The notes under the pieces: model-generated | The model's input: only the letters and a program-made list of their open reading frames with translations | The model's database searches: none | Told to the model about the DNA's origin: nothing | IMG/VR virus record: IMGVR_UViG_3300013137_000098 | Coordinates: 1 to 23,441 of that record | Origin: a virus | DNA: 23,441 nt | Strand: one strand, 5' to 3' | Made by a program: the position numbers and the translations under genes | Part shown: in pieces, positions 2,758 to 23,441 of the stretch | Numbering within the stretch: the stretch's first letter is position 1 | Layout: each line of letters opens with the position of its first letter

Positions 2758-4548
2758 TTATTCTGGTTCACATTCTGTTGCTGCACTTAATGTTGAACCA
2801 TTCCAATATCTTTCCATTGACTTGTTTGACCAATAGCCAACATCTGCTACGGTATTACAACCAGCACCAACATATAATTTAGTTGCTGTTGCAAAGGTTG
2901 CTGTATCTGTGCTCATGCTATTTGGTATATTGGATTCACAAGCAAGCGTTTCCACGGTACTATAATATAAAGTTTGTGAATAGCAAGAAAGTACCGTTGT
3001 AGTTGTAGTTGTTGTATAACTTATATTATCCATAACTATATTATATCTTTTTATATTATTTAATAATTCTTCTATTGAAGGTTCTGTTCCATCTACAAGG
3101 TCTATTCTTGGATATACTGCTTGCATATGTAAGGTGGATTGATAAGGCATCATAACACGCATATAAACACCTGTGGTAGAACCACTTGAATAATAATTAT
3201 AAATGCTTGTATAGTCAGTTCCTCCTGTTAAATTATATATTTTTGGTACTAAACTTGAATTAAAACTAAATGGTGATGTTGTTGATGGTAATAAATAACC
3301 AACACATAATTTCCATTCATTTAACTGGAAATAAGTTTCTACTGGTGATAATGCTGGTAAAAAATAATAACTATTTGATATACCAGTTGTTGATAAATTA
3401 GTATGAAATGAAAAATCAGCACTTACTCCTTTTCTTGGATTGTAGCCAAAATAATATCTATTTGCTATACTTTGACCAGTTAAAACCAATCTATTCCATA
3501 TTGAAAAACGATAAGTTTTAGTGTTATCAATTAAAATACCTTCAGCGGGGCCTGTGCTTTGAAATCCGGCTGTTGCATCACTAGTATTACCAAAACCCTC
3601 CCATATAATAGAATTATTATTAAATGGATCAGTTCCTAAAAATCTATAATTAGTTGAATTAGAAGTATATTGTGTAAATGATGTAGTTAAATCTGCTGCG
3701 GTTGAACCAGTTGTACCATCAATCCAACTTGATAAATCTAACATATTAGTATTCTGTTCATATGAAACTAATTTGTTATCTTTTTCAGCTTTTAATAATT
3801 GTGCTATTGATGGTTCTGTTCCATCTACAAGGTCTATTCTTGGATATAAAAAACATCCTGATACGGATGTGCCTGATGGTACATTAAAAGGTGTTGATGC
3901 TCTTATACCAACATTATATGTATCACTTATCATTATATAATCTCTTATGGTCATTCCAGTTGTAAGTTTAGTGCCATTTGGTTGATAAACACCAGTATTA
4001 GTATGTAATGTTGTTCCTGTTGGTGTTGTATATGGTCTCAAATGAGCAACACATAAACGCCATTCATTTTCAGGAAATATAACATTTGTTTGTGTTGGTG
4101 ATGTTAAAATTGGATAAGGATTATTTGTCGTTGAATATGTTGGTGTTGCTATAATTGAGTTTCTGCTGGTTATACCACTCATTGCCCATAAACCAAAATA
4201 TACATATCCTTGTCCAGCAACTACATTTTTTCTTTTAATCCAGCAAGAAAATCTATAAGTTTTTGTCTTATCTACAGGTACTAATTGATATGAATTCGCG
4301 GCTGCAGTTATATTAAATCCACCATATACATTTCCAGATTGTGTATTTCCTGATAATGCTCTCCAACATACAGATTGAATACCCCAAGGATCCGTTTCTA
4401 AAACTCTTTCATTTAAAGTATTATTTAAACTATATTGATTCCAAAATGAAGGAGATGGACCAGTACCATTAGTTGAACCTGTTGTTCCAGTAATCCAAGT
4501 TGAATAATCAATTAAATTAGTATCTTTATTTAAAAATAATTTATTCAT
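2758..4548 (-). CDS. Adhesin with duplicated beta-sandwich, Thr linker and Cys/Tyr-rich module
   Basis: The product is 596 residues. Residues about 6-255 and 265-505 are two divergent copies of one domain. Both begin with NTN(L/M)(I/L)D, contain KTYRFSxW and NEW(R/K)LCV, and end in YPRIDLVDGTEPSI followed by a short Lys-rich helix. This Tyr/Trp-rich, Ser/Thr-rich pattern resembles carbohydrate-binding beta-sandwich domains of phage fibres. A linker of seven threonines (about 511-518) then joins a Cys-containing C-terminal module with KLYVGAGC and RYWNG, related to modules in the gene at 13864-14931. The start codon overlaps the stop of the large fibre gene in ATGA, so the two are translationally coupled and may form one fibre complex. 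Host glycan binding is inferred. Confidence 0.65.
   Translation of the reverse strand: MNKLFLNKDTNLIDYSTWITGTTGSTNGTGPSPSFWNQYSLNNTLNERVLETDPWGIQSVCWRALSGNTQSGNVYGGFNITAAANSYQLVPVDKTKTYRFSCWIKRKNVVAGQGYVYFGLWAMSGITSRNSIIATPTYSTTNNPYPILTSPTQTNVIFPENEWRLCVAHLRPYTTPTGTTLHTNTGVYQPNGTKLTTGMTIRDYIMISDTYNVGIRASTPFNVPSGTSVSGCFLYPRIDLVDGTEPSIAQLLKAEKDNKLVSYEQNTNMLDLSSWIDGTTGSTAADLTTSFTQYTSNSTNYRFLGTDPFNNNSIIWEGFGNTSDATAGFQSTGPAEGILIDNTKTYRFSIWNRLVLTGQSIANRYYFGYNPRKGVSADFSFHTNLSTTGISNSYYFLPALSPVETYFQLNEWKLCVGYLLPSTTSPFSFNSSLVPKIYNLTGGTDYTSIYNYYSSGSTTGVYMRVMMPYQSTLHMQAVYPRIDLVDGTEPSIEELLNNIKRYNIVMDNISYTTTTTTTVLSCYSQTLYYSTVETLACESNIPNSMSTDTATFATATKLYVGAGCNTVADVGYWSNKSMERYWNGSTLSAATECEPE
3071..3848 (-). 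repeat. Direct DNA repeat marking the domain duplication in the adhesin gene
   Basis: The plus-strand stretch beginning CTATTGAAGGTTCTGTTCC near 3072 recurs near 3803 as CTATTGATGGTTCTGTTCC, and the match continues for roughly 45 bases. Both copies encode the end of the beta-sandwich domain (PRIDLVDGTEPSI). The rest of the two domains is much more diverged, so this tract is either under strong constraint or has been homogenised by recombination. Confidence 0.7.
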
Positions 4549-7500
4549 AATCTACTATCTATTAACCAATTTAAGTTAGTAATTTTTATACTTTCTGATG
4601 CTGCTGCTTTGAAATATAATTCAAAGTAATCATTTTGTATAACATCACTTATATACACATTAGTTCCAAAGTTAAAATCTCTTGCGTTTGTATCTAATGT
4701 TATAATTCCATATCCATAAGTAGTTCCAGTTAAACCATTCTTAACTATTGCATATTCTAATGATGATAATTGTGTTGATGTTTGCATCGTTCCATTTAAC
4801 CACATCATTAAATCTTTTTCATGTGTAGGTAAGAAAGTAATTCTATTACCTGAATAAGTAAACTTTTTATAATAACTGTTAGCACTTGGGCCATAAACTG
4901 CTTTAGTCCAATTTGTAGTTACTGATGTAACACCAGTTGATGATATAACATTTAATTTAGCGTGTGGGTTTTGACTTTCTTGTCCAACATTATTTATCAT
5001 TACAATATCAGCATCTCTAGCTATTGTAAAATCAAATCCACTTTTAAATGTTCCAACATTATTCCAAATTGCACCTTCTATAGCAAACTCACTATAAGTT
5101 GTGGCTGAACCAACATAATTTATAAATGTTTGTGCTGAATGTGTTAATTCAGTTGTATCACCTTGGCTTGAAAGGTACATATTTGTTCCACCTGAAAGTA
5201 TATTTATACCTTTATAAAGTGGATATTTACTTTGTGCTGAATAATCAGTAAAACTGGATCTATATTTAGCACCTACAGCACCAGTATTTAATTCAAAACC
5301 ACTGGTTATGCAATCGTTTATTTGACTTTCAAATACCCAAAACTCTCCATTATTTGTTGATACTAAACCTTTATCAAAATCACAAATTGTAGTATCTTTA
5401 ATTTCATAATACTTATCAGCTGTTGCACATCTTATACCAGTTGTAGTTCCTGTTGCAGTTCCACCACTTAATATAAGTTTAGTAAATGAAACATCACTTT
5501 GACAAGTAAACATAGGTTGGTTACTCATACCACTTGCTGCAGTTAAATAAGATTGTGCGTAACCACCTGAAGTAATTGTTAATTGATAAGGTAAGTTTAT
5601 TGTAATACCTGAATTAATACTTTCATTGTCAGCTGTTAAAACTAATGTAGTTGCTCCTGACATATTTCCTTGTAGCCAAGTTAAACTGGTTACTAAGTTT
5701 GGAAATTGTGAAAGTGGATCACCAATAAATATATAATATGGAAAACCAAGAGGTCCATATGTTCCACCTATTGCACCAGTTACAAATAAGTTTGGTGTAT
5801 AAAGTGTGCTATTTGAATAATATAATTCATTTAAAGTTGTTCCTGATATACCTGAGGTTCCAGATGATCCAGAAGTTCCATTAGTTCCTGAACTACCTGA
5901 GGTTCCATTTGTTCCTGAACTACCTGATGTTCCATTTGTTCCTGAACTACCTGAGGTTCCATTTATTCCTGAACTACCTGAAGTTCCATTAGTTCCTGAA
6001 GTTCCATTAACACCACTTGAACCACTTGAACCTGAAGTTCCATTAGTTCCACTTGAACCGCTTGTTCCACTTGAACCACTTGTTCCATTAGTTCCACTTG
6101 AACCTGAGGTTCCATTTGTACCTGAAGTTCCATTAACACCACTTGTACCACTTGATCCAGATGTTCCATTAGTTCCTGAAGTTCCATTAACACCACTTGT
6201 ACCACTTGAACCTGAGGTTCCATTTGTACCTGAAGTTCCATCAACACCACTTGTTCCATTAGTTCCTGAAGTTCCATTAACACCACTTGATCCAGATGTT
6301 CCATTAGTTCCTGAAGTTCCATTAACACCACTTGAACCACTTGAACCTGAAGTTCCATCAGTTCCCGAACTACCATTATCACCATTTACACCACTTGAAC
6401 CTGATGAACCTGATGTTCCACTTGTTCCTGATGAACCAGATGAACCAGATGTTCCACTTGAACCAGATGAACCAGAAGTACCATTTACTCCTGAACTACC
6501 TGATGAACCTGATGAACCACTACTACCATTAACACCGGAAGTACCATTAGTTCCTGATGTACCATCTATACCAGAAGTACCATCAGCTCCTGAAGTACCA
6601 TCAGTTCCTGAAGTACCATTATCACCATTTACTCCAGATGTACCAGATGATCCTGATGTACCAGATGATCCTGATGTACCATTTTCACCACTTGTACCAC
6701 TTGATCCAGATGTACCATTTTCACCATTTACACCACTTGTACCACTTGTACCACTTGAACCTGAACTACCTGAAGTACCATTATCACCATTTACACCACT
6801 TGAACCACTTGAACCTGATGTACCATCAACACCGGATGTACCATCAGTTCCTGATGTACCATTTACACCACTTGTTCCTGATGAACCACTTGAACCAACA
6901 AACTCACCATCTTTACCACTTGTTCCTGATGAACCACTTGTTCCATTATCACCATTCACACCACTTGATCCTGATGTACCATCAGTTCCTGATGTGCCAC
7001 TATCACCATTTACACCACTTGTTCCTGATGAACCACTTGTTCCATTATTACCATTTACACCGCTTGTTCCTGATGAACCACTTGTTCCATTATCACCATT
7101 TACTCCTGATGTACCAGATGAACCTGATGTTCCATCAACTCCTGATGTACCATTATCACCATTCACACCACTTGAACCAGATGAACCATTTGTACCATCA
7201 GTTCCAGTTGCTCCATCTTTACCACTTGTTCCACTTGAGCCTGATGCACCATCAATACCTGATGTTCCATCAGTTCCAGCTGCACCATTTACTCCAGATG
7301 AACCTGAACTACCTGATGTACCATCAATTCCAGAAGTACCATCAATACCTGATGAACCAGATGAACCTGATGTTCCATTATCACCATTTACACCACTTGA
7401 ACCACTTGATCCATTAACACCAGATGTTCCATTAGTTCCAGCTTCACCATTTATACCTGACGAACCAGATGTACCATCAGTTCCAGCTGCACCATTTACT

Positions 7501-7889
7501 CCAGATGAACCAGATGAGCCAGAATTACCTGATGTTCCTGAACTACCTGATGAACCAGATACACCATTTATACCTGAACTACCTGATGTTCCATCAACTC
7601 CTGATGTTCCATCAATTCCTGATGTTCCATCAATTCCTGATGTTCCATCAATTCCTGATGTTCCATTAACACCACTTGTACCTGAACTACCAGATGATCC
7701 AGATGTTCCATCTATACCAGATGTTCCATTATATGTAAGGCCAGTCCAATAAGTTAAACCATCACCAATTTTAAACTGGTCCAAATCTAAATCTACACCT
7801 ACTTCACCTTGTGCTAATATAGGATTATATTGTTCCCAATTTGCGGTTGTATCTCTTCTTAATTGAAGTTGTGCATTTATTGTGCTCAT
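4545..7889 (-). CDS. Long collagen-like tail fibre with beta-helix C-terminal region
   Basis: The product is 1114 residues. Residues 1-54 (containing NAQLQLRRDTTANWEQYNP, then LAQGEVG and FKIGDG) match the N-terminal domain common in phage fibres and named after the major tropism determinant, which attaches the fibre to the virion. Residues 55-683 are about 209 Gly-X-Y triplets built from GTS, GSS, GVN, GTD, GTN, GID and GDN, with a single interruption, GEFV, near residue 330. Residues about 690-960 are rich in short Gly/Thr/Ser strands with spaced hydrophobics and resemble a right-handed beta-helix. The last 150 residues look like a compact beta domain, perhaps a receptor-binding tip. No proline occurs in the triplets. 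It overlaps the next gene by four bases (ATGA). Confidence 0.82.
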   Translation of the reverse strand: MSTINAQLQLRRDTTANWEQYNPILAQGEVGVDLDLDQFKIGDGLTYWTGLTYNGTSGIDGTSGSSGSSGTSGVNGTSGIDGTSGIDGTSGIDGTSGVDGTSGSSGINGVSGSSGSSGTSGNSGSSGSSGVNGAAGTDGTSGSSGINGEAGTNGTSGVNGSSGSSGVNGDNGTSGSSGSSGIDGTSGIDGTSGSSGSSGVNGAAGTDGTSGIDGASGSSGTSGKDGATGTDGTNGSSGSSGVNGDNGTSGVDGTSGSSGTSGVNGDNGTSGSSGTSGVNGNNGTSGSSGTSGVNGDSGTSGTDGTSGSSGVNGDNGTSGSSGTSGKDGEFVGSSGSSGTSGVNGTSGTDGTSGVDGTSGSSGSSGVNGDNGTSGSSGSSGTSGTSGVNGENGTSGSSGTSGENGTSGSSGTSGSSGTSGVNGDNGTSGTDGTSGADGTSGIDGTSGTNGTSGVNGSSGSSGSSGSSGVNGTSGSSGSSGTSGSSGSSGTSGTSGSSGSSGVNGDNGSSGTDGTSGSSGSSGVNGTSGTNGTSGSSGVNGTSGTNGTSGVDGTSGTNGTSGSSGTSGVNGTSGTNGTSGSSGTSGVNGTSGTNGTSGSSGTNGTSGSSGTSGSSGTNGTSGSSGSSGVNGTSGTNGTSGSSGINGTSGSSGTNGTSGSSGTNGTSGSSGTNGTSGSSGTSGISGTTLNELYYSNSTLYTPNLFVTGAIGGTYGPLGFPYYIFIGDPLSQFPNLVTSLTWLQGNMSGATTLVLTADNESINSGITINLPYQLTITSGGYAQSYLTAASGMSNQPMFTCQSDVSFTKLILSGGTATGTTTGIRCATADKYYEIKDTTICDFDKGLVSTNNGEFWVFESQINDCITSGFELNTGAVGAKYRSSFTDYSAQSKYPLYKGINILSGGTNMYLSSQGDTTELTHSAQTFINYVGSATTYSEFAIEGAIWNNVGTFKSGFDFTIARDADIVMINNVGQESQNPHAKLNVISSTGVTSVTTNWTKAVYGPSANSYYKKFTYSGNRITFLPTHEKDLMMWLNGTMQTSTQLSSLEYAIVKNGLTGTTYGYGIITLDTNARDFNFGTNVYISDVIQNDYFELYFKAAASESIKITNLNWLIDSRL
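5841..7727 (-). repeat. Collagen-like 9-bp-periodic repeat tract
   Basis: About 1.9 kb of near-periodic DNA encodes the Gly-X-Y rod of the large fibre. The base unit is 9 bp, and higher-order units of 18-45 bp recur, such as the blocks for GTSGSSGTSGVNGDNG. The same words occur in the tracts at about 150-416 and 23312-23414. Because every unit is a multiple of 9 bp, recombination between units can change fibre length without frameshift. The tract also keeps long antisense frames open on the plus strand; those are artefacts of composition. Confidence 0.9.
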
Positions 7890-9413: not shown

Positions 9414-10340
9414 TTAGTAAATCCAATAATATACAATTTCAGCACCGATGCCATATTGAACACCAGCAGTAAATCTCATTACGAATCTAACATTTTCTGA
9501 ACCATCTAAATCTGCCATATCTAACACTTTTACTTGGTTAGTGTCGTTCAATAAACCAGTACCGAACCATAAGTTCTCTTTTTCAGCCATAACCATTTCA
9601 CTTGTTGGTAAACCAGATGTTTCAATAATTGGTACACCAGCAAAATATAATGAATTAATTGTTTGGTTAGGACCTTTATTATCATAACCAGCAGCACCTA
9701 AACCATTTGCTCCAAATCCACCTAATGAAATTAAGTAGTTGTAATAAACATCTTTTGCTACATAAAGCACTGGATTAGTTGTATTTAATGCTAAACCAGC
9801 AGCAACAACTTTTGCTAATTCTGCTTGAACATTAGAAGCCGTAATTGTAGTTCCTGATACATCAACAACAGTTGCATCATCTTTGAATAACAAAGTGAAA
9901 CCAGTTAATATATTAGTTGAATGTTGCCATATACCAGTTTCAACAGCAGCACCTACTGATTGTGATAAATTACCGATTAAAAAATCGCTAAAGTTTCTTG
10001 GTAACTCATCAAATGCTGAATAACCCATTTGAATTGCTTCCCAATCTGAGTGAAAATCTTTCTTACAAAGTTGAAGGTTTACTTGAAACTCAACTGGAGT
10101 TAAGATTCTTTCGGTTAATGCGACGGTTCCTGTTGCGGTAAAATCGCAAGTTGCGGCTGCTAAAATACTTGAAGTAGCCAATTTTTTAACAACTTCTTTA
10201 TACTTAATATTTGGTTTAACGGTAATTGTACCATTTCCCAAAGTTGGCGATGCTAAAAGAGCGGCTTGGATATATTGTCCAGCAAACTCACCTGCATATG
10301 TGCTCGTAATAGAAGTAGTAGTTGATAATTTTTGTTCCAT
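9414..10340 (-). CDS. Major capsid protein (HK97 fold expected)
   Basis: The product is 308 residues. It follows a scaffold gene and a prohead protease gene, the normal order for an HK97-type head. The segment LTERILTPVEFQVNLQLCKK (about 75-94), then DFHSDWEA, matches major capsid proteins of Bacteroidota siphoviruses that I recognise. The N-terminal 30 residues are Ser/Thr/Ala-rich without a long Glu/Lys-rich delta domain, consistent with the scaffold being a separate gene. The C-terminal part (GVPIIETSGLPTSEMV, then FRFT-like VMRFTAGVQYG) fits the P-domain end of the HK97 fold. It should form the icosahedral shell. The start codon is chosen 17 bases after the scaffold stop; there is no Shine-Dalgarno site. 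Confidence 0.85.
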   Translation of the reverse strand: MEQKLSTTTSITSTYAGEFAGQYIQAALLASPTLGNGTITVKPNIKYKEVVKKLATSSILAAATCDFTATGTVALTERILTPVEFQVNLQLCKKDFHSDWEAIQMGYSAFDELPRNFSDFLIGNLSQSVGAAVETGIWQHSTNILTGFTLLFKDDATVVDVSGTTITASNVQAELAKVVAAGLALNTTNPVLYVAKDVYYNYLISLGGFGANGLGAAGYDNKGPNQTINSLYFAGVPIIETSGLPTSEMVMAEKENLWFGTGLLNDTNQVKVLDMADLDGSENVRFVMRFTAGVQYGIGAEIVYYWIY

Positions 10341-10357
10341 AATTTCTATTTTTATTT

Positions 10358-10927
10358 TTAATATAACTTTTTGTTATACATATTCTTAAATATGTTATTT
10401 AATTCTTTATTTTTATTCAATGGTTTTTCAATCATTTTACCTAATTTAATTTCAGGTTGAACTTCAGTTTCCATACTTGCTTTAACCTCTTTTTTGAAAT
10501 TAGATTCTGAAAAACTTTGTGCAAGTTGTGTTACAACTTCCATCATTTGCGCGTAATCGCTTTCTAATTTAGCAATCTTTGATGCTAATTCTTCAACTGA
10601 TAATGTAGTTGGTGCTTCTTCTTCCATTTCTTCTTCAACAACTGGCATTTCCTCAGGTGCTTCAATAGGTGCTTCAGGTGCTTCCATTTCTTCAATCTTA
10701 CCACCAGCAACCATTAACTTAGTTCCATCCTCTAAAATATACTCTCCATCTGGAGCAGGATTTCTACCACTTTCATCTACAACAAAGATTTCAATTCCAA
10801 CACCCAATTCACCTTCATAACTTAATATAATACCATCTTTGGTTTTAATATCAATAAGATTAGTTGGTTGTTCTGTTTCCTCTGTTAAGAATGCCTTAAT
10901 TTTACTTACTGCTTCTTTGATATTCAT
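10358..10927 (-). CDS. Capsid scaffold protein
   Basis: The product is 189 residues. Residues about 27-77 look like a small beta domain (IKTKDGIILSYEGELGVGIE and an ILEDGTKLMVAGGKIEE stretch). A strongly acidic Pro/Glu/Met segment follows at about 78-106. A coiled-coil stretch (SVEELASKIAKLESDYAQMM) follows at about 109-140, then a basic Lys-rich C-terminus. Acidic, coiled-coil proteins with a basic tail lying between prohead protease and major capsid genes are scaffolds; the basic tail usually binds the capsid protein. A Pro/Glu-rich middle of this type is common in Bacteroidota phages. Cleavage by the protease at 11006-11875 is likely but no site can be named. A bipartite motif lies 20 bases before its ATG. 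Confidence 0.75.
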   Translation of the reverse strand: MNIKEAVSKIKAFLTEETEQPTNLIDIKTKDGIILSYEGELGVGIEIFVVDESGRNPAPDGEYILEDGTKLMVAGGKIEEMEAPEAPIEAPEEMPVVEEEMEEEAPTTLSVEELASKIAKLESDYAQMMEVVTQLAQSFSESNFKKEVKASMETEVQPEIKLGKMIEKPLNKNKELNNIFKNMYNKKLY

Positions 10928-10947
10928 AATGATTTTTTATTTTTATT

Positions 10948-11922: not shown

Positions 11923-13686
11923 TTATATTGTTCCGTTGGCTACTACTTGTCTATCCAATTGTTGTTGTGTTTGAACATCTTTTGATATAACATAGGTTCT
12001 AACTGGTTGTAATTGTGGTGTAGTTGATGATGGTGAAAAAGTAAATGATGTATTTGGTGATGTTCCACCACCTGCAGGTGCTCCAGTAGGTATTGAACCT
12101 CCACCACCTGACATAGTTCCATCTACTGGCGTAGAAATTATTTTTGATATTTGTGCGGCACCTAATAAACCAGTTGCTACTGATAAAATTGTAGCCATAA
12201 CACCATAATCTTTTTTTGGTACATCTTTCCATATACCCATAATAGCAGCGGCTGTATCAATAATTGTTGATGCTACTGCATATGCTTTCTCCCTTTTAGC
12301 TGATTCGGCTTGTATTTTTGATACAGCTTTATCATATTGTTCTTGTGTAATTTTTTTATCTCTTAATAATTGTTGTTGTCTATTTAATGCTACATTTGTA
12401 AATGCTTGGTCTAATGTTGCTATTGCTTCTAATGATGTTCTTGCACTTTCTATTTGTGTTTGTTTTTTCCACTCTTCAAAATCAGCAGCATCTTCTTTAT
12501 CTTGCTCAATTTTTTCTAGTGCTTTATTTGCTTCTTCTTCTGCTATTTGTTGTTTAGCATCACTAACTCTTTTTTCACTTTCAATTTTTTCATCAGCACC
12601 TTTTGCTTCCCTATTCATCATTTCATTAAATGCTGCATCCATAGCATCATTAAACTCTTTCTCATTCTCCAGCATTATATCTCTGGCATCTTTTTCATTT
12701 TTTTTAATTTCATCCCATAATTCTTTTTCCTTTTGTTTTGTTTTTTCTATTCCTGATTCGGATGCTTCTATTATTTGGTTTCTTCTATTCTGTGTTTTTT
12801 CTGCTAATTGTATATTCTGACCTTCAATTGATGCTCTTTTTAAATATGCTTGTTTTAATATATCTATTTCTTTATCAGCATTAACCTGTGCACCATTTTT
12901 TTTCATAGCACCAGCTACACCTATATTTCTTAATTCTTCTTCTGTTATGCCAAGTTTAATAGCAAGTGCTTTTTCTGCCATTCTTACTTCATCATCATTT
13001 ACTTTTTTAGTTTGCTCAAAGCGTTGTTGCTCTAACTTCATAGCATCATCAATCGCTTTTAATCTTTCTTTTTCAGTTTTAGTTCTATCTCTTGACTGCA
13101 ATAATAATCTATCTATCTGGTTTTGTAAATTAGCATTTGATAATTCTAATAGTATTTGTTGATCCTCTAAATCTTGCTCTGTGGCTTTTAATCCTCTTGC
13201 AGCAGCAGCTGCATCTCTCATACTTTCACCAAGTCTAGTAAAACTTTCCTTAAATGACTTATTACCAGTAATCCAACCTAATACACTATTTTTAAATGTA
13301 TCAAAACCAGCAGTTAAACCAGCCCATTTTTGTTGAACTTTTTCAACTACAGGTGTAAATGTTTTTAACATTGCTACTAAGCCAGTAATTGCACCTACAA
13401 TTGCAGTAATGGATAATAAAATTGGATTTGTTACAAAGGTGGTCATCAATGCTTTACCAACACCAATTATACCTTGCATAAATCCTTTTAATCCAATTTC
13501 ACCTGACTTAAAACTATCAGTTAAATCATTTATTTGTTTTCTAAAATTACCTAAATTGGTTTTTTCAATTTTTTTAGTTTCTGCTAAAACTTCTTTAACT
13601 GCTTTTTTAAACCTATTTATATCAACGGTTGCTTCTTTACCATCTATTGTTAATTTTATAACTTTTTCAGTTGTGTTAGTTGCCAT
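11923..13686 (-). CDS. Tail tape measure protein
   Basis: The product is 587 residues, short for a tape measure. It starts with a small lysine-rich domain (KLTIDGKEATVDINRFKKAV), then a hydrophobic segment at about 67-107 with LLSITAIVGAITGLVAML. A long charged coiled coil follows, rich in Gln, Glu and Lys, at about 150-465. A second Ala-rich hydrophobic region follows at about 465-515 (STIIDTAAAIMGIW, then SVATGLLGAAQ), then a Gly-rich stretch and a C-terminus RTYVISKDVQTQQQLDRQV. This C-terminal signature recurs in tape measure proteins of Bacteroidota phages. Tape measures set tail length and move into the membrane during DNA ejection. If it is the sole length determinant, the tail should be relatively short. 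Its ATG overlaps the stop of a small upstream ORF. Confidence 0.82.
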   Translation of the reverse strand: MATNTTEKVIKLTIDGKEATVDINRFKKAVKEVLAETKKIEKTNLGNFRKQINDLTDSFKSGEIGLKGFMQGIIGVGKALMTTFVTNPILLSITAIVGAITGLVAMLKTFTPVVEKVQQKWAGLTAGFDTFKNSVLGWITGNKSFKESFTRLGESMRDAAAAARGLKATEQDLEDQQILLELSNANLQNQIDRLLLQSRDRTKTEKERLKAIDDAMKLEQQRFEQTKKVNDDEVRMAEKALAIKLGITEEELRNIGVAGAMKKNGAQVNADKEIDILKQAYLKRASIEGQNIQLAEKTQNRRNQIIEASESGIEKTKQKEKELWDEIKKNEKDARDIMLENEKEFNDAMDAAFNEMMNREAKGADEKIESEKRVSDAKQQIAEEEANKALEKIEQDKEDAADFEEWKKQTQIESARTSLEAIATLDQAFTNVALNRQQQLLRDKKITQEQYDKAVSKIQAESAKREKAYAVASTIIDTAAAIMGIWKDVPKKDYGVMATILSVATGLLGAAQISKIISTPVDGTMSGGGGSIPTGAPAGGGTSPNTSFTFSPSSTTPQLQPVRTYVISKDVQTQQQLDRQVVANGTI

Positions 13687-13863: not shown

Positions 13864-14931
13864 TTATCCATTACAATTAAATACTTCACCTAATTCTTGA
13901 TTATTTGAATCCCAATATCTAACATACAAGCCATCTGAGTAAAAACCAATTGGTGCAGTTACAGAACAATTTGAACCATTTATATATAACTTACTTGATA
14001 ATGATAATGATGTATTATTCATATCAATAGTTGTTGGTGACGATACAAAGCAAGCACCAGTCCAAGAAGTTTCTGAATAACTTAATGATGCTTCAATACA
14101 ACCAGTAGTTGTTGTGGTCGTAGTTGCAGGACAAGAATATAAATCTGATACTTGACCTACATTACTTATTCTTGCTGCATAAAAACTTGTTAAAAATTGT
14201 AATTTATAAAAATCTCCATTTCCTACAAATGGTGTGGACATATTAGTATCAGTATATAATACTGGTGATGTTGTTAAATCAGTTTTTGAATATAAATAAT
14301 CAGATCCTGATGGACCAGCACAAGCCAATAAATTAGTTGAATAAGTGCTGTCATTTTTAAGACAGAACCAAACTGGACCTGAATAAGGTGTAGTTGTAGT
14401 AGTTGTAGTTGGTGAAGGCGTAGTTGTTGTGGTTGATACTGGTGGATCTGGTGGAACTACAGCACAATTAGCTGCAACACCTAAAGTTTCAACACCACTG
14501 TCCCAATATCTAACTATAGTTCCATCACTATAATAACCATTAGCAGCTGTTACTAAACAAGAAGAATTATGAATATATAATTTTGTTGAAGTTGCCAAAT
14601 TAAGATTATTCATATCAACTGGGCTTTCTGATGCTGAACAAGCAGTATATTGTGTAGATGAATATCTTAAACTATTTGTAGTTACACAACCGGTTGTAGT
14701 TGTAGTAGTTGTTGCCGGCATAGTTAAAGTTATTGAATTAGTGCAAGTTCCAACAGATGTTATTGTTACTGATGTAGCTGTATCATCAACCGTTGCTAAT
14801 TGTCCTAATAACAATTGTGTTTTTGTTGAAGTTACTGGAACTACTGTTCCTATATCAGCAGTAAGGTTAAAGTTTGGTCCTAAATTAGCACCTAAACCTC
14901 CACTTAATGTTATTATTATACTTTTACTCAT
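13864..14931 (-). CDS. Multi-module virion surface protein with Thr linkers
   Basis: The product is 355 residues in five clear parts. Residues 1-71 form an N-terminal domain (IIITLSGGLGANLGPNFNLT, then a VTSVGTCTNSITL-like end) of a type seen at the N-terminus of tail or surface proteins of environmental phages. Three Thr-only or Thr/Pro linkers at about 72-80, 162-181 and 268-275 separate three modules of 75-85 residues. Modules 1 and 3 are clear repeats: each has a first Cys, a Tyr/Ser-rich start, (S/T)KLYI, an xxC, GYYSDG or GFYSDG, RYWDS and a final Cys. Module 2 is a distant relative or a different domain. A related module ends the adhesin at 2758-4548. The role is probably surface adhesion; disulfides are likely. 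Confidence 0.65.
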   Translation of the reverse strand: MSKSIIITLSGGLGANLGPNFNLTADIGTVVPVTSTKTQLLLGQLATVDDTATSVTITSVGTCTNSITLTMPATTTTTTTGCVTTNSLRYSSTQYTACSASESPVDMNNLNLATSTKLYIHNSSCLVTAANGYYSDGTIVRYWDSGVETLGVAANCAVVPPDPPVSTTTTTPSPTTTTTTTPYSGPVWFCLKNDSTYSTNLLACAGPSGSDYLYSKTDLTTSPVLYTDTNMSTPFVGNGDFYKLQFLTSFYAARISNVGQVSDLYSCPATTTTTTTGCIEASLSYSETSWTGACFVSSPTTIDMNNTSLSLSSKLYINGSNCSVTAPIGFYSDGLYVRYWDSNNQELGEVFNCNG

Positions 14932-14947
14932 TTTATATTTTTATTTT

Positions 14948-17200
14948 TTAAGTCATTTCACATAATTTAGCAGTTCCAGGACCAGCCCATTTAGTTACAA
15001 AAACTCTTGATCCTACAAACAATATTTCATTTGGTGTAAATCCACTTTCTAATTTATAAACAGCTACACTATCTGGTGTAGAAACACTAAACTTCTCAAT
15101 ATAACCACTTATTTTACAACTATATATATTAGTTCCATTTAAGAATAAACCATAAGTTTCACTAATAGTTAATGGTGTAATTGAATTGTTATTTGCTAAA
15201 TCCACAATTATACAACCACCCAATTCACTACCTATATATAATTTATTACTATAATAAACCATATCATCAGTTAAAGTATTTGTATAACTTGAAAGATCCA
15301 CAATTGTATAAGTCCAAATATCATCAGCATCTAAAATTGCTAATTTTTCAGTAGTTCCTTGTGAAGTTAAATATACTTCATTTCTTGTTGCGCTATAAGC
15401 CGCAGCATGTGTTGATGTAAAATCATTATAAAACTTAGCTTTCTGAATAAGTTCCCAATCACTAATTCTAATTTTAAAGAACTCATAATCAGTTCCACCA
15501 TAAATATATGTTCCATCCGTAGTTATAGCAAAGTTCCATACATCAATTGTTGGATATGTATGTTTTGTAAATGTTAAATCTGTTCCACATTCAACTATAA
15601 CTAAATAACCTGTTGTAGTTTCAATAGTTCCAAAATACATAGTGCTTCCTGATGAACATACATTTTCTAAACCAATATATTCATTTCCAACATCACTTAC
15701 CGTTACTCCTGTATATGAATTCAAATCATCTGGATCATCAAACTTAATTATATATGGGTTTTGTTTCCTTTCACCAATAAACATCATACCATCTACTGTA
15801 ATTGATGAATGTGCATATTCAAATATATTCGTAGCTGAACAACTTAATGATGCTAGAGCAGTTGTAGTTGTTGTAGTTATATTTGAAGTTGTAGTTGTTG
15901 TAGTTAATACCGTGGTTGAAGTAGTTGTAGTTGTATTTCCTGTTGTTGAGGTTAAACCTGCTAAAAAATATTTTTTACCAGCAACAGTTATACTTTCAAC
16001 ATCTGACAAACCTTCTAATATATATTCTTCTATATTATTTCTATCTGAGAAATCTAAATTAGTTTGTCCAGTGTAAGGTGATATATTCATAAGTGTCTTA
16101 ATTCTATCAATTCTACAACAAATAGCAGTCGTATAATTATCTACTGGCGTTCCAGTCCAAGGATTATTTACAGTTCCTGAAATAAGTCCAGCAAGAACTA
16201 AACCTATAATCTTTTTAGTTCCTGAACCATCAACATCAGCATAAACAACTGAACCACTATCTCCTGGATTAACAGGTAAATAACATAAACCACCTGAACC
16301 ATCAGTTGCTACCATAGTAAATAAGTCATTATAATTTACGCTTACATAAGAATAACTTATTGTATTAGCATAAAAAATTGAACTTAATTTCATTTTAGTC
16401 CTACCTTCACCTTTTGAACCAGTTGTCCTACCAGCAGCATAAAGGTTATAATCGTTTTCTAATATATTATTTATTTCATCAGTTGAAGCCCATAACATAC
16501 CTGCTGTATAACCAGTTAAACCTTCTATTTTCCAACTTTGTGAATTATCAATGTCTGTGTCATCAATAGTACATAACGCACAATCAATAAAATTATCAGT
16601 TGCTCCAGTTCTCCAAGGTTTAAATCTTTTAATAGCACCTATATAATCAGTTCCACCATCACCACTTGCTGGTTGAACTATCAAATTATTTTTAGTATTA
16701 TCAATAGTTCCAGTAGTTCTATATGGTGCTAATAATGCATTATTTACAATCACATGTGCATTTGAAACACCAACTAATGTATTATCTTCATTATCTACCG
16801 CTAAAAAACCTAATGTACCTGTTGAAGTTGGCATATTTGTATAATTGGTACAAGAAATACCACCTTTTAATGGTCTAATTTGGTCTCTATTTGTTGGTTC
16901 TACTGGTGTTGGGTATTGTGGCATCCATTGGTAAAACTCATCATAACACCAATCCATTAATGGTCTTATTTCACCTTCAATAACATCAGTATTATAAGTT
17001 TTTCCTTCGTGTTTAATAGTTTTTAGTATTCTTTTTCCTTCTGGTATTTGGTCTATTGGTAATTTCTTTTTTACTGTATAGGTTATACCAATTTCTTTAG
17101 TTAAAATTCCATTTTTAATTTTTCTACCAATTCCTACACCAATTACATTATCATCAGTCTCTATTAATTGTTTGCTTGTTAATTTATTTAAATCTTTCAT
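14948..17200 (-). CDS. Trypsin-like serine peptidase fused to a probable beta-propeller
   Basis: The product is 750 residues. Residues about 17-60 (DNVIGVGIGRKIKNG, later YTVKKKLP) are the N-terminal pro-domain-like segment that precedes many bacterial and phage trypsin-fold peptidases of the Nal1-like type. The catalytic triad is visible: His149 in VGVSNAHV, Asp206 in FIDCAL, and Ser315 in NPGDSGS. A Thr-rich linker (about 420-448) then joins about 300 residues with repeated hydrophobic/Gly/Tyr strands (TDGTYIYGGTDYEFFKI, NKLYIGSELGGCIIVDL, NGTNIYSCKISGYIEKF), which look like blades of a beta-propeller. It sits among baseplate genes with 1-base to 16-base gaps, so it is probably a virion tail-tip enzyme that cleaves a host surface protein or matures tail proteins. 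No signal peptide is seen. Confidence 0.8.
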   Translation of the reverse strand: MKDLNKLTSKQLIETDDNVIGVGIGRKIKNGILTKEIGITYTVKKKLPIDQIPEGKRILKTIKHEGKTYNTDVIEGEIRPLMDWCYDEFYQWMPQYPTPVEPTNRDQIRPLKGGISCTNYTNMPTSTGTLGFLAVDNEDNTLVGVSNAHVIVNNALLAPYRTTGTIDNTKNNLIVQPASGDGGTDYIGAIKRFKPWRTGATDNFIDCALCTIDDTDIDNSQSWKIEGLTGYTAGMLWASTDEINNILENDYNLYAAGRTTGSKGEGRTKMKLSSIFYANTISYSYVSVNYNDLFTMVATDGSGGLCYLPVNPGDSGSVVYADVDGSGTKKIIGLVLAGLISGTVNNPWTGTPVDNYTTAICCRIDRIKTLMNISPYTGQTNLDFSDRNNIEEYILEGLSDVESITVAGKKYFLAGLTSTTGNTTTTTSTTVLTTTTTTSNITTTTTTALASLSCSATNIFEYAHSSITVDGMMFIGERKQNPYIIKFDDPDDLNSYTGVTVSDVGNEYIGLENVCSSGSTMYFGTIETTTGYLVIVECGTDLTFTKHTYPTIDVWNFAITTDGTYIYGGTDYEFFKIRISDWELIQKAKFYNDFTSTHAAAYSATRNEVYLTSQGTTEKLAILDADDIWTYTIVDLSSYTNTLTDDMVYYSNKLYIGSELGGCIIVDLANNNSITPLTISETYGLFLNGTNIYSCKISGYIEKFSVSTPDSVAVYKLESGFTPNEILFVGSRVFVTKWAGPGTAKLCEMT

Positions 17201-17201
17201 A

Positions 17202-19643
17202 TTATTCTGATATTTTTTGTATATAAATGTATGAGGTATTTCTAACTGCTGGATTTGTAGTTGAAGTTGTTGTAGTAGTTGGTTCAGATGTAGTTGAAGT
17301 AGTTGTGGTTGTTGGACCAGCAGTTGTAGTTGTAGTTGTTATTGGTTCAGATGTAGTAGTTGTTGTTGTAGTAGTTGGTTCAGATGTAGTTGAAGTAGTT
17401 GTTGTTGTTGAACCAGCCCAAGTAATTTCACCACCAGTATATTCACAACCTTCTGGTTGGATTTCTATATTTCCACCATTAAAATCACAAACACTGGTTG
17501 GTGTATAATCATTTGATGGTATAGCCATAGTTAATAATTTAATTTTGGCGTAACCATTTTTTATATTACTTCTAATTTCTAATATTTCATACCATATATT
17601 ATGAACTACTATTTTATCCGATACTTTAATTGTATATAATATATTTGATGGTAATATAAAATCTAATGTAGTTTCATATTTAATTGATACATTATCTTTT
17701 ATAGCATTTGGAAACTTCGTATAATCTAACGAATATCCATTTGGTCCATCAGGTCCATAATCCGAAGCATAACACATACCTGAATAAGATGTTAAGCCAC
17801 TTTGTAAATTATAATATTCTGCAGTTAATCCTGATACAATTGGTAATCTATATAATAATAAAAATGGTGTATTAATAGGTTCTAAACTTTCGTTCAATTC
17901 ACTATGTAATGGAATTGTAGTATCCTCTAATATAACATTATTATTATCTGTTTTATTTAATGTAGTCCTTGGAAATACGGTGAATAAACTTTTAAATTCT
18001 AATTTTTCTTCACCATTATCATATGAATAATATACTCGGCTTTGTCCATAACTCAATCCATTTGAACCAATCTCAGGCTGTAAATCATCTTGCGCTTGTC
18101 GCCATGCTATATTATTAATATCTTTACCTTCTGCGAATTGATAATCAATTAGTTTATATTTTTGGTTGTGGTTCCAAGTATAATCTTTATCTTTTATAAA
18201 GTATTCACTTAAGTCATATATAGTTGAAGGTATTTCACTTTTAAAATAAGTATTTACTATTTTTGTATTACTATTATATTCAAAAAATATATTAAACGAC
18301 TTACAAAATTGTATAAAAAAATCACTTTTATACATATCAGGGAAATTGATAGTAATTTTACTATAATCATAAGTTGGATCTGTTAAAAGTGTAAGTTTTA
18401 ATGTTGATATTAATTGGTCGTTATTAAAATATCCATATTTAGTTTCCCAAGATGTTCCATTCCAATATTCATATTCAATACTTACTAAAAATTGAAGTTG
18501 TTGTCCTACCGTTAAGTTTATTAATGAAATTGTATTTTCAGAATTAACATCTATATAAGCATGTTGCACTAATGCGCCTGTATCATATCTAATTACATAT
18601 AATGAATATCCAACGATATTTTCATATTGTGTTGGTGGGTTTATTAATGTCATATCTAACTTTAAACTAATAGGTGTTGAAGGTATAGTGTAGTAATTAT
18701 TTGATAATGTATAAGTTTCTATATTATCCCATGAAGTTAAGTCAGTATTCCCTTCCATTATACCACCATCTGAACCACCACCAGGTGATAATTTTAATTT
18801 ATTACAAGTAATAGGCGTTCCTGGAACTATAACCGTAGTAATTTGTCTGGTATAATCACCTCTTGCTGTTGTATAAATATAAGTTAAACTATTAGTATAT
18901 TCTGTTTTTGTATTTGGCATCAAAAATAATTCATCTAAAAAAGATGAAACTTCTGTGCTCGGTGAATGTGTGATAGTATTTGGTGTAAAAAGTTTATCAA
19001 TTATATCACCTAATTTATATGAAACTGATAAATCTGTCATTTTTACACCACCAGTATCAGCCATAACTCTTGCTATATTACCTTCTTGTTGTGTATCTCT
19101 AAAGTTTAATGGTCTTTTATTAGCCATTATTGGTACAAAAATATCACCAGCCGCCCAACTTCCAGTCACATTTCCTATATTAAAAGTAAATGACATATCA
19201 GTAAGGTCTATATTATTCAATTTTGGTGTCTCAGAAGTATTTAATTCTTTAATTAAATCCTTTTCTTGTCCATAAAATACTAAGTTATAAGCATATTTAT
19301 ACATTTTTTTAATTGAAAAACCTTGAACCTGTATATTACCTAATATTTCATATTCATTAATAACTATTTTTGCTGGCATAAAGTATGCTGGATTTAATCT
19401 TTCATTACTTGATGATATTGAAGTTGAATTAACAAGGGTTCCACCAATTTCATCATAATATTTAAATATTTCAGCATTATTATCATCTATTGGAACTGAA
19501 AAACTTGTTGAATATGAACCATAACCAGTTATAATTTGTTGGTTATTCCAATTTCTGGTTAATTCTATTTCTTCATCACCAAATAAACTTACTTTATGTT
19601 CAACATAAGATCCACTAACTAATGTTTTTACGAATAGTTCCAT
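17202..19643 (-). CDS. Baseplate / tail-tip hub protein with C-terminal Thr linker
   Basis: The product is 813 residues. The first 140 residues (SLFGDEEIELTRNW, then YGSYSTSFSVPIDDNNAEIF, then PAYFMPAKIVIN and GNIQVQGF) match the start of large tail proteins in Bacteroidota siphoviruses: a domain with a STSFSxPxxxxNxxIF signature after a short strand-rich lead. The middle part is strand-rich and includes a domain around DMYKSDFFIQFCKSFNIFFE, the type expected of Tal/gp27-like hub proteins. Residues about 743-797 are a long Thr linker with SEP, AGP and NP spacers, and only 17 residues follow, ending QKISE. It lies directly after the 425-residue baseplate gene (its ATG begins the base before that stop). 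The Thr stalk may hold a small terminal tag or a partner protein. Confidence 0.68.
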   Translation of the reverse strand: MELFVKTLVSGSYVEHKVSLFGDEEIELTRNWNNQQIITGYGSYSTSFSVPIDDNNAEIFKYYDEIGGTLVNSTSISSSNERLNPAYFMPAKIVINEYEILGNIQVQGFSIKKMYKYAYNLVFYGQEKDLIKELNTSETPKLNNIDLTDMSFTFNIGNVTGSWAAGDIFVPIMANKRPLNFRDTQQEGNIARVMADTGGVKMTDLSVSYKLGDIIDKLFTPNTITHSPSTEVSSFLDELFLMPNTKTEYTNSLTYIYTTARGDYTRQITTVIVPGTPITCNKLKLSPGGGSDGGIMEGNTDLTSWDNIETYTLSNNYYTIPSTPISLKLDMTLINPPTQYENIVGYSLYVIRYDTGALVQHAYIDVNSENTISLINLTVGQQLQFLVSIEYEYWNGTSWETKYGYFNNDQLISTLKLTLLTDPTYDYSKITINFPDMYKSDFFIQFCKSFNIFFEYNSNTKIVNTYFKSEIPSTIYDLSEYFIKDKDYTWNHNQKYKLIDYQFAEGKDINNIAWRQAQDDLQPEIGSNGLSYGQSRVYYSYDNGEEKLEFKSLFTVFPRTTLNKTDNNNVILEDTTIPLHSELNESLEPINTPFLLLYRLPIVSGLTAEYYNLQSGLTSYSGMCYASDYGPDGPNGYSLDYTKFPNAIKDNVSIKYETTLDFILPSNILYTIKVSDKIVVHNIWYEILEIRSNIKNGYAKIKLLTMAIPSNDYTPTSVCDFNGGNIEIQPEGCEYTGGEITWAGSTTTTTSTTSEPTTTTTTTTSEPITTTTTTAGPTTTTTSTTSEPTTTTTSTTNPAVRNTSYIYIQKISE
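17254..17414 (-). repeat. Threonine-linker repeat tract in the hub gene
   Basis: This tract of ACA/ACT codons with short spacers repeats units of about 33-60 bp, such as the blocks for SEPTTTTTT. A 41-base segment (17299-17339) is identical to 22819-22859 in another gene more than 5 kb away. Equivalent shorter tracts lie at about 2990-3016, 14105-14128, 14388-14445, 14691-14718, 15859-15945, 20322-20337, 20862-20915, 22440-22466 and 22785-22892. Confidence 0.85.
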
Positions 19644-20936: not shown

Positions 20937-21209
20937 TTATTTAAACTCATCATATAACTTTTTAAGATTAAATAATATACCTTGCCAGCACGGTGTGCAT
21001 TGGGTCATTACTTGGTTTAATCCTAAAACTCTATTATAAATATTTAGTATTTCTCTTTGTTGTTGTGCTTCAATAATAGCTGCGTTCCAATTAAACTTAT
21101 CTAAGTAAGCTAATTCATCAGGTGTAAAAACTATTCTACTTTCCATTATTACTAATTTTTTTTTTATATCTTCTTTATCTCTTCCACCTGAATATCTTAT
21201 TGGATTCAT
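20937..21209 (-). CDS. Small protein with CxxCW motif, function unknown
   Basis: The product is 90 residues. It is mostly helical in appearance (FTPDELAYLDKFNWNAAIIE, then QREILNIYNRVLGLNQV), with Cys71 and Cys74 in QCTPCWQG near the C-terminus. An internal Met at residue 22 (IMESRIVFTP) could be the true start; the upstream Met is kept because it leaves a normal 39-base gap. It lies between the gp10-like tail completion gene and the baseplate genes. The single CxxC could coordinate metal with a partner copy or be redox-active; with only one pair, a complete zinc finger is not present. I recognise no family and infer a structural or assembly role only from its place. Confidence 0.65.
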   Translation of the reverse strand: MNPIRYSGGRDKEDIKKKLVIMESRIVFTPDELAYLDKFNWNAAIIEAQQQREILNIYNRVLGLNQVMTQCTPCWQGILFNLKKLYDEFK

Positions 21210-21248: not shown

Positions 21249-21689
21249 TCAAAAACCATACATTTCTGCTTCTATTGATGCTTCATCTAAATCCTCTAAT
21301 AAACCATTTACATATTGGTCTATTAGTTTATCCATATCTTCTGTATATTGTTCATAAGGTATTGTGAAAAAATAAGTTGGCTTCCAACCTCTTCTTTCAA
21401 TTGCTCTTTTAATAACATATAAATACTTTTCATCAATACCTTTTTTTTTCATCCATTTTTTTAATGATTTAGCACCTTCTTTACTAATTGGCCCAGGTCT
21501 TCTACCTTGGTCTATCCAATAACCATAAGGTTCCATATCAAACTCTAACGCAGTTTTATCATCAGTTAGTTTATATGCTAAACTATTATACAAATTACCA
21601 GTTGCTATTTTTCTTTTTCTTTTAAGATTAGATTTAGCATCTTTAATTATATTTTTTCCTAAACTATTTAGAACCTCCTCCAGCGTCAT
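21249..21689 (-). CDS. HK97 gp10-like tail completion / minor tail protein
   Basis: The product is 146 residues. It contains IATGNLYNSLAYKL at 28-41 and a YGYWIDQGRRPGPI segment at 55-68. Together these are the hallmark of the HK97 gp10 family: a helix followed by (T/S)GxLxxS and then Y(A/G)xxxexG(t/r)R..pP. These proteins act at the head-tail joint or tail end and are made with early tail genes. Then follow a Lys-rich stretch with KSLKKWMKKKGI and a C-terminal acidic helix. The start ATG overlaps the last 26 bases of the frameshifted chaperone frame, so its translation is likely coupled to the long chaperone form. Confidence 0.78.
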   Translation of the reverse strand: MTLEEVLNSLGKNIIKDAKSNLKRKRKIATGNLYNSLAYKLTDDKTALEFDMEPYGYWIDQGRRPGPISKEGAKSLKKWMKKKGIDEKYLYVIKRAIERRGWKPTYFFTIPYEQYTEDMDKLIDQYVNGLLEDLDEASIEAEMYGF

Positions 21690-22409
21690 TTTTCTTACTT
21701 AGTATTTTTTCCAATTTTATTTTATCTACTATAAAACTTAACCATATTAAAACTTCACCTATTCGTTTTTCAAGGATAATGTCCTGACGGGTGATATCTC
21801 CATTACATAATTCATATATCCAAGGAAACCATCCATATATTTTTCCAAACTCTGCTTCTTCTCTCCATCTAAACCCATCTCCATTAAAGATTGATGGGTA
21901 TAATTTATGAATGCGCTCTGTATATTCAAAAAAAAACTTATAAAACCATAATAAACATCTAATGTTAATTCTTCTTTTAATAATTCATAATGTGATATGT
22001 CTGCTTTATATTTTTCTATTGTATATTTTCTAAATAATTTCTTTTTAATAGGTCTATATAAAATTGCTATTTGTTTAATAATATCATCAGTATCACAATC
22101 CACTAATTCACCAAATGTCATATCATCAAAGTTTGGATTTATACCATATTTTTTATCACCTAATTTGAATATAGGAACCAGTGGTTTATCCATCATAAAT
22201 ATATTTTCTATAATTTTATACATATCTAATAAAGTATTAAATGGTATTTGGTTAAAAACCTGGTCATCTATACCATAAAATATACAAATTGTATTTTTTA
22301 ATAGTAATTGTTCATCATTTTTTTGCTCATCAGTTAAACTATTTAAAAATTTTTGATATTCTAAATAATTTTTTACTTTAATATCACTTAATTTTCTTGG
22401 TATTTTCAT
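21664..22409 (-). CDS. Tail assembly chaperone, full-length form by -1 frameshift
   Basis: The zero frame runs from ATG at 22409 to TAG at 21759 (216 residues). The -1 frame stays open through TAG at 21664-21666 and reads far more like a conserved protein: after the shift at 21930-21936 it gives FEYTERIHKLYPSIFNGDGF, then GWFPWIYELCNGDITRQD, then EVLIWLSFIVDK and ends GGGSK. The GWxxxIYxxxNGDIT...WLSF pattern is that of C-terminal parts of tail assembly proteins in Bacteroidota phages. The combined product would be 248 residues: 160 zero-frame residues plus 88. Tail assembly chaperones of many siphophages are made as short and long forms by such shifts. Here the long form overlaps the next gene by 26 bases. 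A sequencing loss of one T from a T10 run would give the same picture. Confidence 0.68.
21930..21936 (-). promoter_or_regulatory. Slippery heptamer T_TTT_TTT for -1 frameshifting
   Basis: Nine consecutive T on the minus strand (21936-21928) include a canonical X_XXY_YYZ heptamer in correct phase: codons 158-161 are AGT TTT TTT TTG. Slipping back one base gives TTT GAA, which enters the open -1 frame. The -1 frame opens about 12 codons upstream of this site, so the site lies exactly in the permitted overlap. No strong downstream stem-loop is visible; long U runs can act without one and can also cause polymerase slippage. Confidence 0.6.
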
Positions 22410-22428: not shown

Positions 22429-22450
22429 TGCTAATGTGGTGCTAATGTGG
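22429..22450. repeat. 11-bp perfect tandem duplication at the 3' end of the Thr-linker gene
   Basis: TGCTAATGTGG occurs twice in a row (22429-22439 and 22440-22450). The stop codon of the Cys-rich protein lies in the first copy. With one copy only, the frame would end TLAP then TAA, so the duplication changes the last residue but not the general point at which the protein ends. Confidence 0.8.
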
Positions 22451-23231
22451 TTGTAGTTGTTGTTGTTGGACAAGATATAGTATATATATTAGTAATTGCT
22501 CCACTTGCATCTATTAAAACTATTCTATCATTTGCTGATTTAATTAAGAAATCAGGTGCATATAAATAATAACCTGTTGAAGCAGTATGACAAGCATGAG
22601 ATCCAGTTATTGCTTCATAAGGTTTATCACCAACAGTTGGAGTTGAATTAGCAGTATAATAAACCAAACCTGCTGAACTTGTAGGACTTCCACAATATTG
22701 ATTTAAAATTGCTTGTTGTGATGTAGTTATATTAACACCATTTATCTCATGATATAATGTATAATACTGCGTTCCTGTGCAAGTAGTTGTAGTTGTTGAT
22801 GTTATATTTGTAGTTGTTGTAGTTGTGGTTGTTGGACCAGCAGTTGTAGTTGTAGTTGTCTCAGGACTTGTCGTAGTTGTTGTTGTAGTTGGTGGACAAG
22901 CCTCTGAACAAGTATCATAAGGACCAGTTAATGTAAATACACCATCTGCGCCTGTTCCACCGGTACTTTTAATATAAAAAACTATATTTTGATTATTTAC
23001 TTTATAATATTTTGATAATGTTAAATTACCAAAAACCTCAAGTTCCATTTCAGGTGGTTCACCATCACAAGCACAAGTATAATAGTCAGCAATATAAAAA
23101 TTATCTGGCCACCATTGCTTCCAATAAGAACCTGTATATATCCATCCTTCCACAATTGATTTCCATCCATCAACATAGACATTCACATCTATAACATTTT
23201 TCCAATCTGTAATATATATATTTGCTGACAT
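22431..23231 (-). CDS. Cys-rich virion surface protein with Thr linkers
   Basis: The product is 266 residues. The N-terminus holds three short Trp-centred strands (YITDWKNVIDVNVYVDGWKS, then WIYTGSYWKQWWPD), like the repeated VNGxWK units at the N-termini of some phage structural proteins. A domain with CAC and CSEAC follows, then a Thr linker (about 113-150), then a second domain bounded by Cys residues (CTGTQYYTLYHEI to YTISCP), then a second Thr run at the extreme C-terminus ending LAPH. Ending in a linker suggests that a further C-terminal module has been lost. The ATG overlaps the stop of the preceding collagen-like gene by one base. It is probably an exposed fibre or baseplate accessory; no enzymatic motif is seen. 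Confidence 0.62.
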   Translation of the reverse strand: MSANIYITDWKNVIDVNVYVDGWKSIVEGWIYTGSYWKQWWPDNFYIADYYTCACDGEPPEMELEVFGNLTLSKYYKVNNQNIVFYIKSTGGTGADGVFTLTGPYDTCSEACPPTTTTTTTSPETTTTTTAGPTTTTTTTTNITSTTTTTCTGTQYYTLYHEINGVNITTSQQAILNQYCGSPTSSAGLVYYTANSTPTVGDKPYEAITGSHACHTASTGYYLYAPDFLIKSANDRIVLIDASGAITNIYTISCPTTTTTTTLAPH

Positions 23232-23441
23232 TATGCTGTATATTTTATATAAACAGTTCCATTTGTATATGTTCCACCTGGAGCTGCACCTGTTCCATAT
23301 AATGCTGATAATCCATCTGTTCCTGATGTTCCTGGAGCTCCATTATTTCCAGAAGTACCATTTGTTCCTGATGTTCCATTTGTGCCTGATGTTCCTGAAC
23401 TACCTGATGTTCCAGGTGTATTAGTTCTTTTTTCTATATTA
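23231..23441 (-). CDS. Collagen-like protein, C-terminal part only
   Basis: The frame is open from the window edge to TAA at 23233-23231. The visible 69 residues read NIEKRTNTP, about 11 Gly-X-Y triplets (GTS, GSS, GTN, GNN, GAP, GTD), then a C-terminal segment LSALYGTGAAPGGTYTNGTV ending YIKYTA. Unlike the long fibre, this rod includes a proline in one triplet (GAP). The short C-terminal beta-like tail may cap the rod or bind the capsid or fibre. The start codon is outside the window but probably only a few residues away, judged from the short head of the similar protein at 149-478. Its stop overlaps the next ATG by one base (TAATG), so translation of the two is coupled. Confidence 0.68.
   Translation of the reverse strand, partial: NIEKRTNTPGTSGSSGTSGTNGTSGTNGTSGNNGAPGTSGTDGLSALYGTGAAPGGTYTNGTVYIKYTA

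Follow-up and report, generated by a model that had tools for sequence, protein, structure and literature searches.

Organization of the locus

The window analysed here, a complete IMG/VR virus record of 23,441 bases, carries on its minus strand a gene whose coding information is divided between two reading frames (Table 1). The N-domain is common to all products of the gene and leads into a pure run of nine T (T9), which the zero frame reads as AGT TTT TTT TTG AAT. The zero-frame open reading frame (ORF) matched phrog_32199, a family of unknown function (E=1.4e-6). Nowhere else does the coding strand of the whole record have a T run of eight or more. The −1 frame beyond it contains no ATG, no GTG and a single late TTG (codon 72), and would for this reason be hard to start independently. 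The end of the −1 domain overlaps the next gene by 26 nt. The initial annotation of this DNA had already located the run, the zero-frame stop and the in-phase heptamer T_TTT_TTT and had noted the overlap with the following gene, and our analysis reproduced each of these.

Table 1. Features of the two-frame gene and its neighbors in the window
Feature	Position	Strand	Description
Zero-frame ORF	22409-21759	minus	216 aa; N-domain (residues 1-160) plus a 56-codon zero-frame tail
T9 run (putative slippage run)	21936-21928	minus	core T_TTT_TTT_T, with the ninth T from the following TTG codon (3' type)
In-phase heptamer T_TTT_TTT	21936-21930	minus	sequence alone permits ribosomal slippage
−1-frame C-terminal domain (GWFPWIYELCNGDIT...WLSF)	21664-21930	minus	88 codons and stop; 87 codons past the run
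Stretch dual-coded in the zero and −1 frames	21759-21930	minus	from wobble substitution rates and synonymous shuffles
+1-frame stop (TGA)	21926-21928	minus	at the run's very end, distance 0 codons
Next gene, neck/tail-completion-like	21689-21249	minus	phrog_29822 (E=4e-7); phrog_5, tail completion or Neck1 (E=0.0025)
Tape-measure-like protein	11923-13686	minus	phrog_18891, tail length tape measure (E=3e-12), C-terminal part

Other features of the window were observed in passing. Two long A runs on the minus strand lie less than 800 bases from the T9, an A9 (21441-21449) inside the neck-like gene and an A10 (21156-21165) inside the following ORF of 90 aa. Either could be a further slippage site, and A runs are perhaps merely tolerated here. 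Long collagen-like GTSGSSG repeats occur in fiber-like proteins (4545-7889, 149-478 and 23231-23440), and several structural proteins have threonine tracts as linkers (13864-14931, 17202-19643 and 22431-23231). A protein of 750 aa among the tail genes (14948-17200) gave a protease match (phrog_20754, E=1e-22).

Frame relation and T run in relatives

The zero-frame product, used as query, retrieved six relatives from IMG/VR, all with exactly T9 at homologous FF codons and with the zero and −1 frames both open past the run. With the N- and C-domains combined into one profile, at least 548 relatives were found, 80 of which were retained, and a second profile, built from divergent members, found 572; a search of genome contigs gave loci in Winogradskyella, Flavobacterium and Galbibacter. 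All 168 loci that could be analysed in this first set, 133 of them distinct, showed the −1 relation with T9 or T10 at the junction. Deeper searches covered the family, the order and the class of the Galbibacter genome, another order of that class, and IMG/VR; the deeper relatives, which reached about 20% identity, as a rule also had T9 at this position. The C-domain alone had no match in viral contigs and returned nothing from INPHARED, a six-row profile found nothing in genome contigs, and a query of the L189 type found nothing in viral contigs.

The wider set comprised 243 loci from IMG/VR, from the cultured Nonlabens phages P12024L and P12024S, and from Galbibacter and Flavobacterium genomes. 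Some of them were fetched from one genome and overlap, so the clusters (87 at 90% identity, 29 at 50% and 16 at 40%) are the fair count. The N- and C-domains stood in the −1 relation in 243 of 243. Without exception the junction consisted of T only and fell at one codon, with T9 in 227 loci, T10 in 15 and T8 in one, and every locus had T_TTT_TTT in phase. No alternative heptamer was present at any out-of-frame junction. The T10 loci are likewise out of frame, the tenth T being a substitution. The single T8 belongs to L194 (G1105), which sits on a deep, long branch and has the junction GTT TTT TTT ATA. The claims that the gene is split over two frames at the T9 and that the −1 extension is conserved are thus borne out across the set. 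The runs at this codon, which the initial annotation had suggested looking for in relatives, are kept as T8-T10, and the arrangement is not a chance one.

In a clade of 25 loci (among L243-L271, on viral contigs) the two domains share one frame and there is no T run. Across the loci collected, a difference of frame and a T run always go together, neither occurring without the other. Since the single-ORF relatives carry both domains in one frame, the joined N- and C-domain protein is taken to be real. This clade may produce the long form alone, or may arrive at the short form in another way.

The same T9 occurs in the Nonlabens (Persicivirga) phages P12024L and P12024S, whose records annotate two hypothetical proteins. 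In P12024L these are gp40 and gp41 (L088, 8995-9689), annotated as two genes; they should be one gene in two frames. The same pair represents PHROG 32199 (N-domain) and PHROG 38404 (C-domain), both of unknown function, which are catalogued as two families with the link between the frames unannotated.

Two loci departed from the common form in other ways. On one IMG/VR contig (L057, about 1840-2320) the frame of the N-domain is broken by apparent indels, likely assembly errors, that lie upstream of its intact T9; its scoring as an in-frame locus was rejected, as it proved to be an out-of-frame T9 locus with indels elsewhere. Gp10 of Flavobacterium phage 6H (L181, about 10040-10930) is a distant match to the N-domain (Foldseek E=5e-4). 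It has two apparent frame breaks, no T9 and a C-terminal domain in another frame, and the breaks could stem from errors in sequencing or from recoding of another kind.

Coding constraint on the two C-termini

Substitution rates were estimated by comparing related sequences in about 43 disjoint pairs. The wobble position of the −1 frame changed at a rate of 0.189 within the overlap with the zero frame, compared to 0.324 past the zero-frame stop (chi-square p ~2e-11, from approximate pooled counts). Position 1 of the −1 frame, which is the wobble position of the zero frame, changed at a rate of 0.182 in the overlap and 0.122 past the stop. Synonymous shuffling of the −1 frame left the zero frame equally long with a median probability of 0.09 per sequence, and of 0.03 in the window. 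The slowed wobble change and the outcome of the shuffling argue that the zero-frame tail, 23-82 codons long depending on the lineage, is a real protein end. By these measures of constraint both the zero-frame and the −1 C-termini are real, and neither is junk. The initial annotation had held that homologues matching the zero-frame C-terminus instead of the −1 frame would defeat the proposal. The −1 C-terminus was matched as it had foreseen; the zero-frame tail was matched too, and the either-or on which the refutation depended does not apply.

Length of the run and placement of the ninth T

All sites except L194 have the core T_TTT_TTT_T in common. The ninth T is the middle base either of the preceding codon (GTT, CTT or ATT) or of the following one (TTG or TTA), so that it is supplied from the 5' side (xTT) or from the 3' side (TTR); no lineage has both and none has neither. 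The corresponding table read 0/22/7/0 for the 29 lineages (Fisher p=6e-7) and 0/11/5/0 for the 16 lineages (Fisher p=2e-4). Kinship among the lineages weakens these p-values, and a tree was built for this reason. On the tree the 3'-type label changes six times by parsimony, at least three of them on well-supported branches, and T10 arose at least twice; the total remains 9-10 throughout. No lineage has anything but T at position Z of the heptamer, even though a T-to-C change there would be synonymous in both frames at 5'-type sites; from each lineage's own usage of Phe codons the log10 P of this is −4.3, a calculation that treats the lineages as independent.

At these sites the length of the run is conserved independently of codon phase. 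The arrival of the ninth T from one side only, never from both or neither, indicates that selection holds the length itself. A selected length favors slippage of the polymerase, as the heptamer does not need that length. The run of 9-10 matches the RNA-DNA hybrid, which is 9-10 bp long (PMC5009743), as well as the nine-nucleotide threshold of the literature: transcriptional slippage is described for Tn with n above 8 (PMC3711429), and nine is the length that many bacterial genomes avoid and that IS elements use (PMC1088944). The T8 of L194 counts against a reading based on this threshold. As a ribosomal site in E. coli, U_UUU_UUU is much weaker than A_AAA_AAG (PMC5009743).

RNA structure, avoidance of runs and third-frame stops

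Folding z-scores, computed for eight windows across 133 sites, revealed no conserved stimulatory RNA structure on either side of the run, pseudoknots not being modelled. The mean z was −0.11 and −0.33 downstream and 0.08 upstream, which agrees with the initial annotation, where no obvious stimulatory stem had been seen. A 3' structure is not an absolute requirement for a −1 ribosomal frameshift site. The window has a hairpin of its own (21899-21873; z of −2.3 for its stretch), which begins 29 nt downstream of the run, too far away for it to act on a ribosome there.

In the genes neighboring the first 133 distinct loci (224,261 codons), we counted one T run of nine or more where synonymous shuffling predicted 8.3, and eight such A runs where it predicted 48. 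This avoidance is not specific, since replication slippage would produce the same pattern. The A9 and A10 of the window, in two neighboring genes, indicate that long A runs are tolerated, and they count against polymerase slippage. A stop in the +1 frame lies within three codons of the run in 21 of the 29 lineages. Such a stop would dispose of one-base deletions, and coding constraints could also contribute to its presence.

Structural model and possible identity of the gene product

The AlphaFold2 (AF2) model of the zero-frame product had a mean pLDDT of 85.8 (49-row alignment) and was confident to about residue 180. In this model the slip site falls inside the last helix of the N-domain (150-177). 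The model of the C-domain was weak (mean pLDDT 68.7). A Foldseek search of the PDB by fold gave no match to solved structures (best E=0.62), there was no sequence match in Pfam or the PDB, and the fold matches in BFVD were to uncharacterised viral (phage) proteins only.

The gene lies in the tail module, before the neck gene, with the tape-measure gene some five genes further downstream; in several relatives the large terminase gene is directly upstream. That it encodes a tail assembly chaperone was the proposal of the initial annotation, and this stands in part. The criterion of two products that share an N-terminus and are linked by a −1 change is met, at the level of sequence only and without protein data. 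Measured against the expected place between the major tail protein and the tape-measure gene, it is in the tail module and ahead of the tape measure, yet some five genes away and before the neck gene. No similarity to a known tail assembly chaperone was found by sequence or by fold; this and the lack of adjacency to the tape-measure gene count against the assignment. From its architecture and position we infer that a helical protein of the tail module, made as two products linked by a −1 change, is most simply, and quite likely, a tail assembly chaperone.

Discussion

Given the constancy of the frame relation and of the run, it is almost certain that these viruses make programmed use of two frames at the T9. 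For the agent of the change, slippage by RNA polymerase is our preferred inference and probably the main mechanism, with considerable doubt remaining in the absence of mRNA or protein data. It is favored because the length of the run is held, no conserved RNA structure accompanies it and no other heptamer is used. On this reading, many phages and proviruses across the class Bacteroidia, a large group, would have in common a tail assembly chaperone gene with two products. Normal reading would give the short protein, consisting of the N-domain and the zero-frame tail. RNA polymerase copying the T9 would add one U in a fraction of the transcripts, and ribosomes on these U10 messages would enter the −1 frame and produce the long protein, in which the N-domain is joined to the WGW-type C-domain. 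In most lineages, reading of a transcript that had lost one U would meet a stop after only a few codons. The short and the long protein may work around the tape-measure protein like gpG and gpGT of lambda. The direction of slippage and the fraction affected, RNA polymerase as its agent, and the chaperone function are all inferred.

The presence of T_TTT_TTT in phase at all sites weighs against the polymerase as sole agent, as ribosomal slippage is possible there. The ribosome might account for the change of frame by itself, with two tRNA-Phe slipping back by one base on the heptamer of a tail assembly chaperone, inefficiently and with no stimulatory element. Ribosomal frameshifting is established for the chaperones of lambda and many dsDNA phages (PMC5009743), and the E/E' gene of P2 has a T6G in phase that is annotated as a −1 translational frameshift. 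Yet seven bases suffice for such a site, as in P2, and 9-10 are held here across lineages of about 20% identity, with the ninth T moving between the 5' and the 3' side. The diversity of heptamers is absent from the family, position Z is never C, and no downstream structure was found over the 133 sites. We regard ribosomal frameshifting alone as possible and on the whole unlikely. The initial annotation had considered the two mechanisms equally good; the conserved length of the run favors polymerase slippage. An arrangement in which the polymerase gives most of the long product and the ribosome some of it, from the same U run, overlaps both single readings. The run suits each machinery, A/T runs being slippery for polymerase and ribosome alike (PMC3711429), but the conserved length remains unexplained beyond the part played by the polymerase, and we consider shared action rather improbable.

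Explanations without programmed slippage fared worse. Homopolymers are prone to sequencing and assembly errors, and a true T10 would make the gene a single ordinary ORF, a question that the initial annotation had referred to raw reads. The relatives, rather than reads, settled it: independent assemblies, including those of the cultured phages P12024L and P12024S and a Galbibacter isolate sequenced at 413x, all have the T9 out of frame, the T10 loci are out of frame as well, and selection acts on the zero-frame tail. Error is thereby refuted for the family as a whole and can hardly be entertained for the window. That the C-domain is a separate protein, made by reinitiation and without fusion, would accord with the annotation of P12024L as gp40 and gp41. 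The −1 frame of the window offers nothing beyond its late TTG for this purpose, however, 24 of the 29 lineages have no ATG or GTG in the first 25 codons, and the single-ORF relatives have the fusion in one frame; independent initiation was rejected on the missing starts and these fusions, and is very improbable. Homopolymer runs inside genes are often phase-variable, and replication slippage could in principle switch such a contingency locus, but an on-phase copy, with an indel fusing the frames, was absent among the 243 loci. Phase variation was rejected on this count, and the chance that it applies is negligible.

The gene resembles several known systems, none of them fully. Like gpG/gpGT of lambda, it would yield a short product and a rarer −1 extended product with a shared N-terminus, from a tail module upstream of the tape-measure gene, although no sequence relation to the lambda proteins was detected. 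In lambda the slippage is ribosomal, near the end of gene G and adjoining the tape-measure gene. The lambda slip site is GGGAAAG and the zero-frame tail is short. Here there is a T9, a dual-coded zero-frame tail of 23-82 codons and a distance of about five genes to the tape measure. Phage P2 has a T-rich slippery site, T_TTT_TTG, in its equivalent two-product tail gene (E and E+E'), but this is a bare T6G heptamer rather than a T9/T10 of conserved length, P2 is a myophage, and E is directly upstream of the tape-measure gene T. The A/T run of about nine and the conservation of its length are shared with known cases of programmed transcriptional slippage, namely with Thermus thermophilus dnaX (A9), which has stops close by in both other frames, with IS elements (A8-A9) and with Shigella mxiE/spa13. 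No phage tail chaperone is among these in the literature searched, and unlike these systems one site is kept here in phages across a whole bacterial class. For phages of Bacteroidetes or Flavobacterium we found no account of transcriptional slippage or of tail chaperone frameshifting, with the subscription literature little covered.

Frameshifting in tail chaperones is a textbook case of ribosomal recoding. We lean towards the view, as a cautious inference from sequence, that in tailed phages of the class Bacteroidia the ratio of the short to the long chaperone may be set by polymerase slippage on a T9 and not by ribosomal frameshifting, with a run that matches the 9-10 bp hybrid and that, along with a dual-coded alternative C-terminus, has stayed at a single codon despite very deep divergence. 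What is new is the proposed mechanism and its conservation throughout the class; the kind of gene is not. PHROG 32199 and PHROG 38404 are joined into one gene in hundreds of environmental viruses, which corrects their annotation as two hypothetical proteins. If polymerase slippage is indeed the mechanism, the ratio of the two proteins, rather than the machinery that sets it, would be what evolution conserves, and a whole class of phages would set it at the level of transcription.
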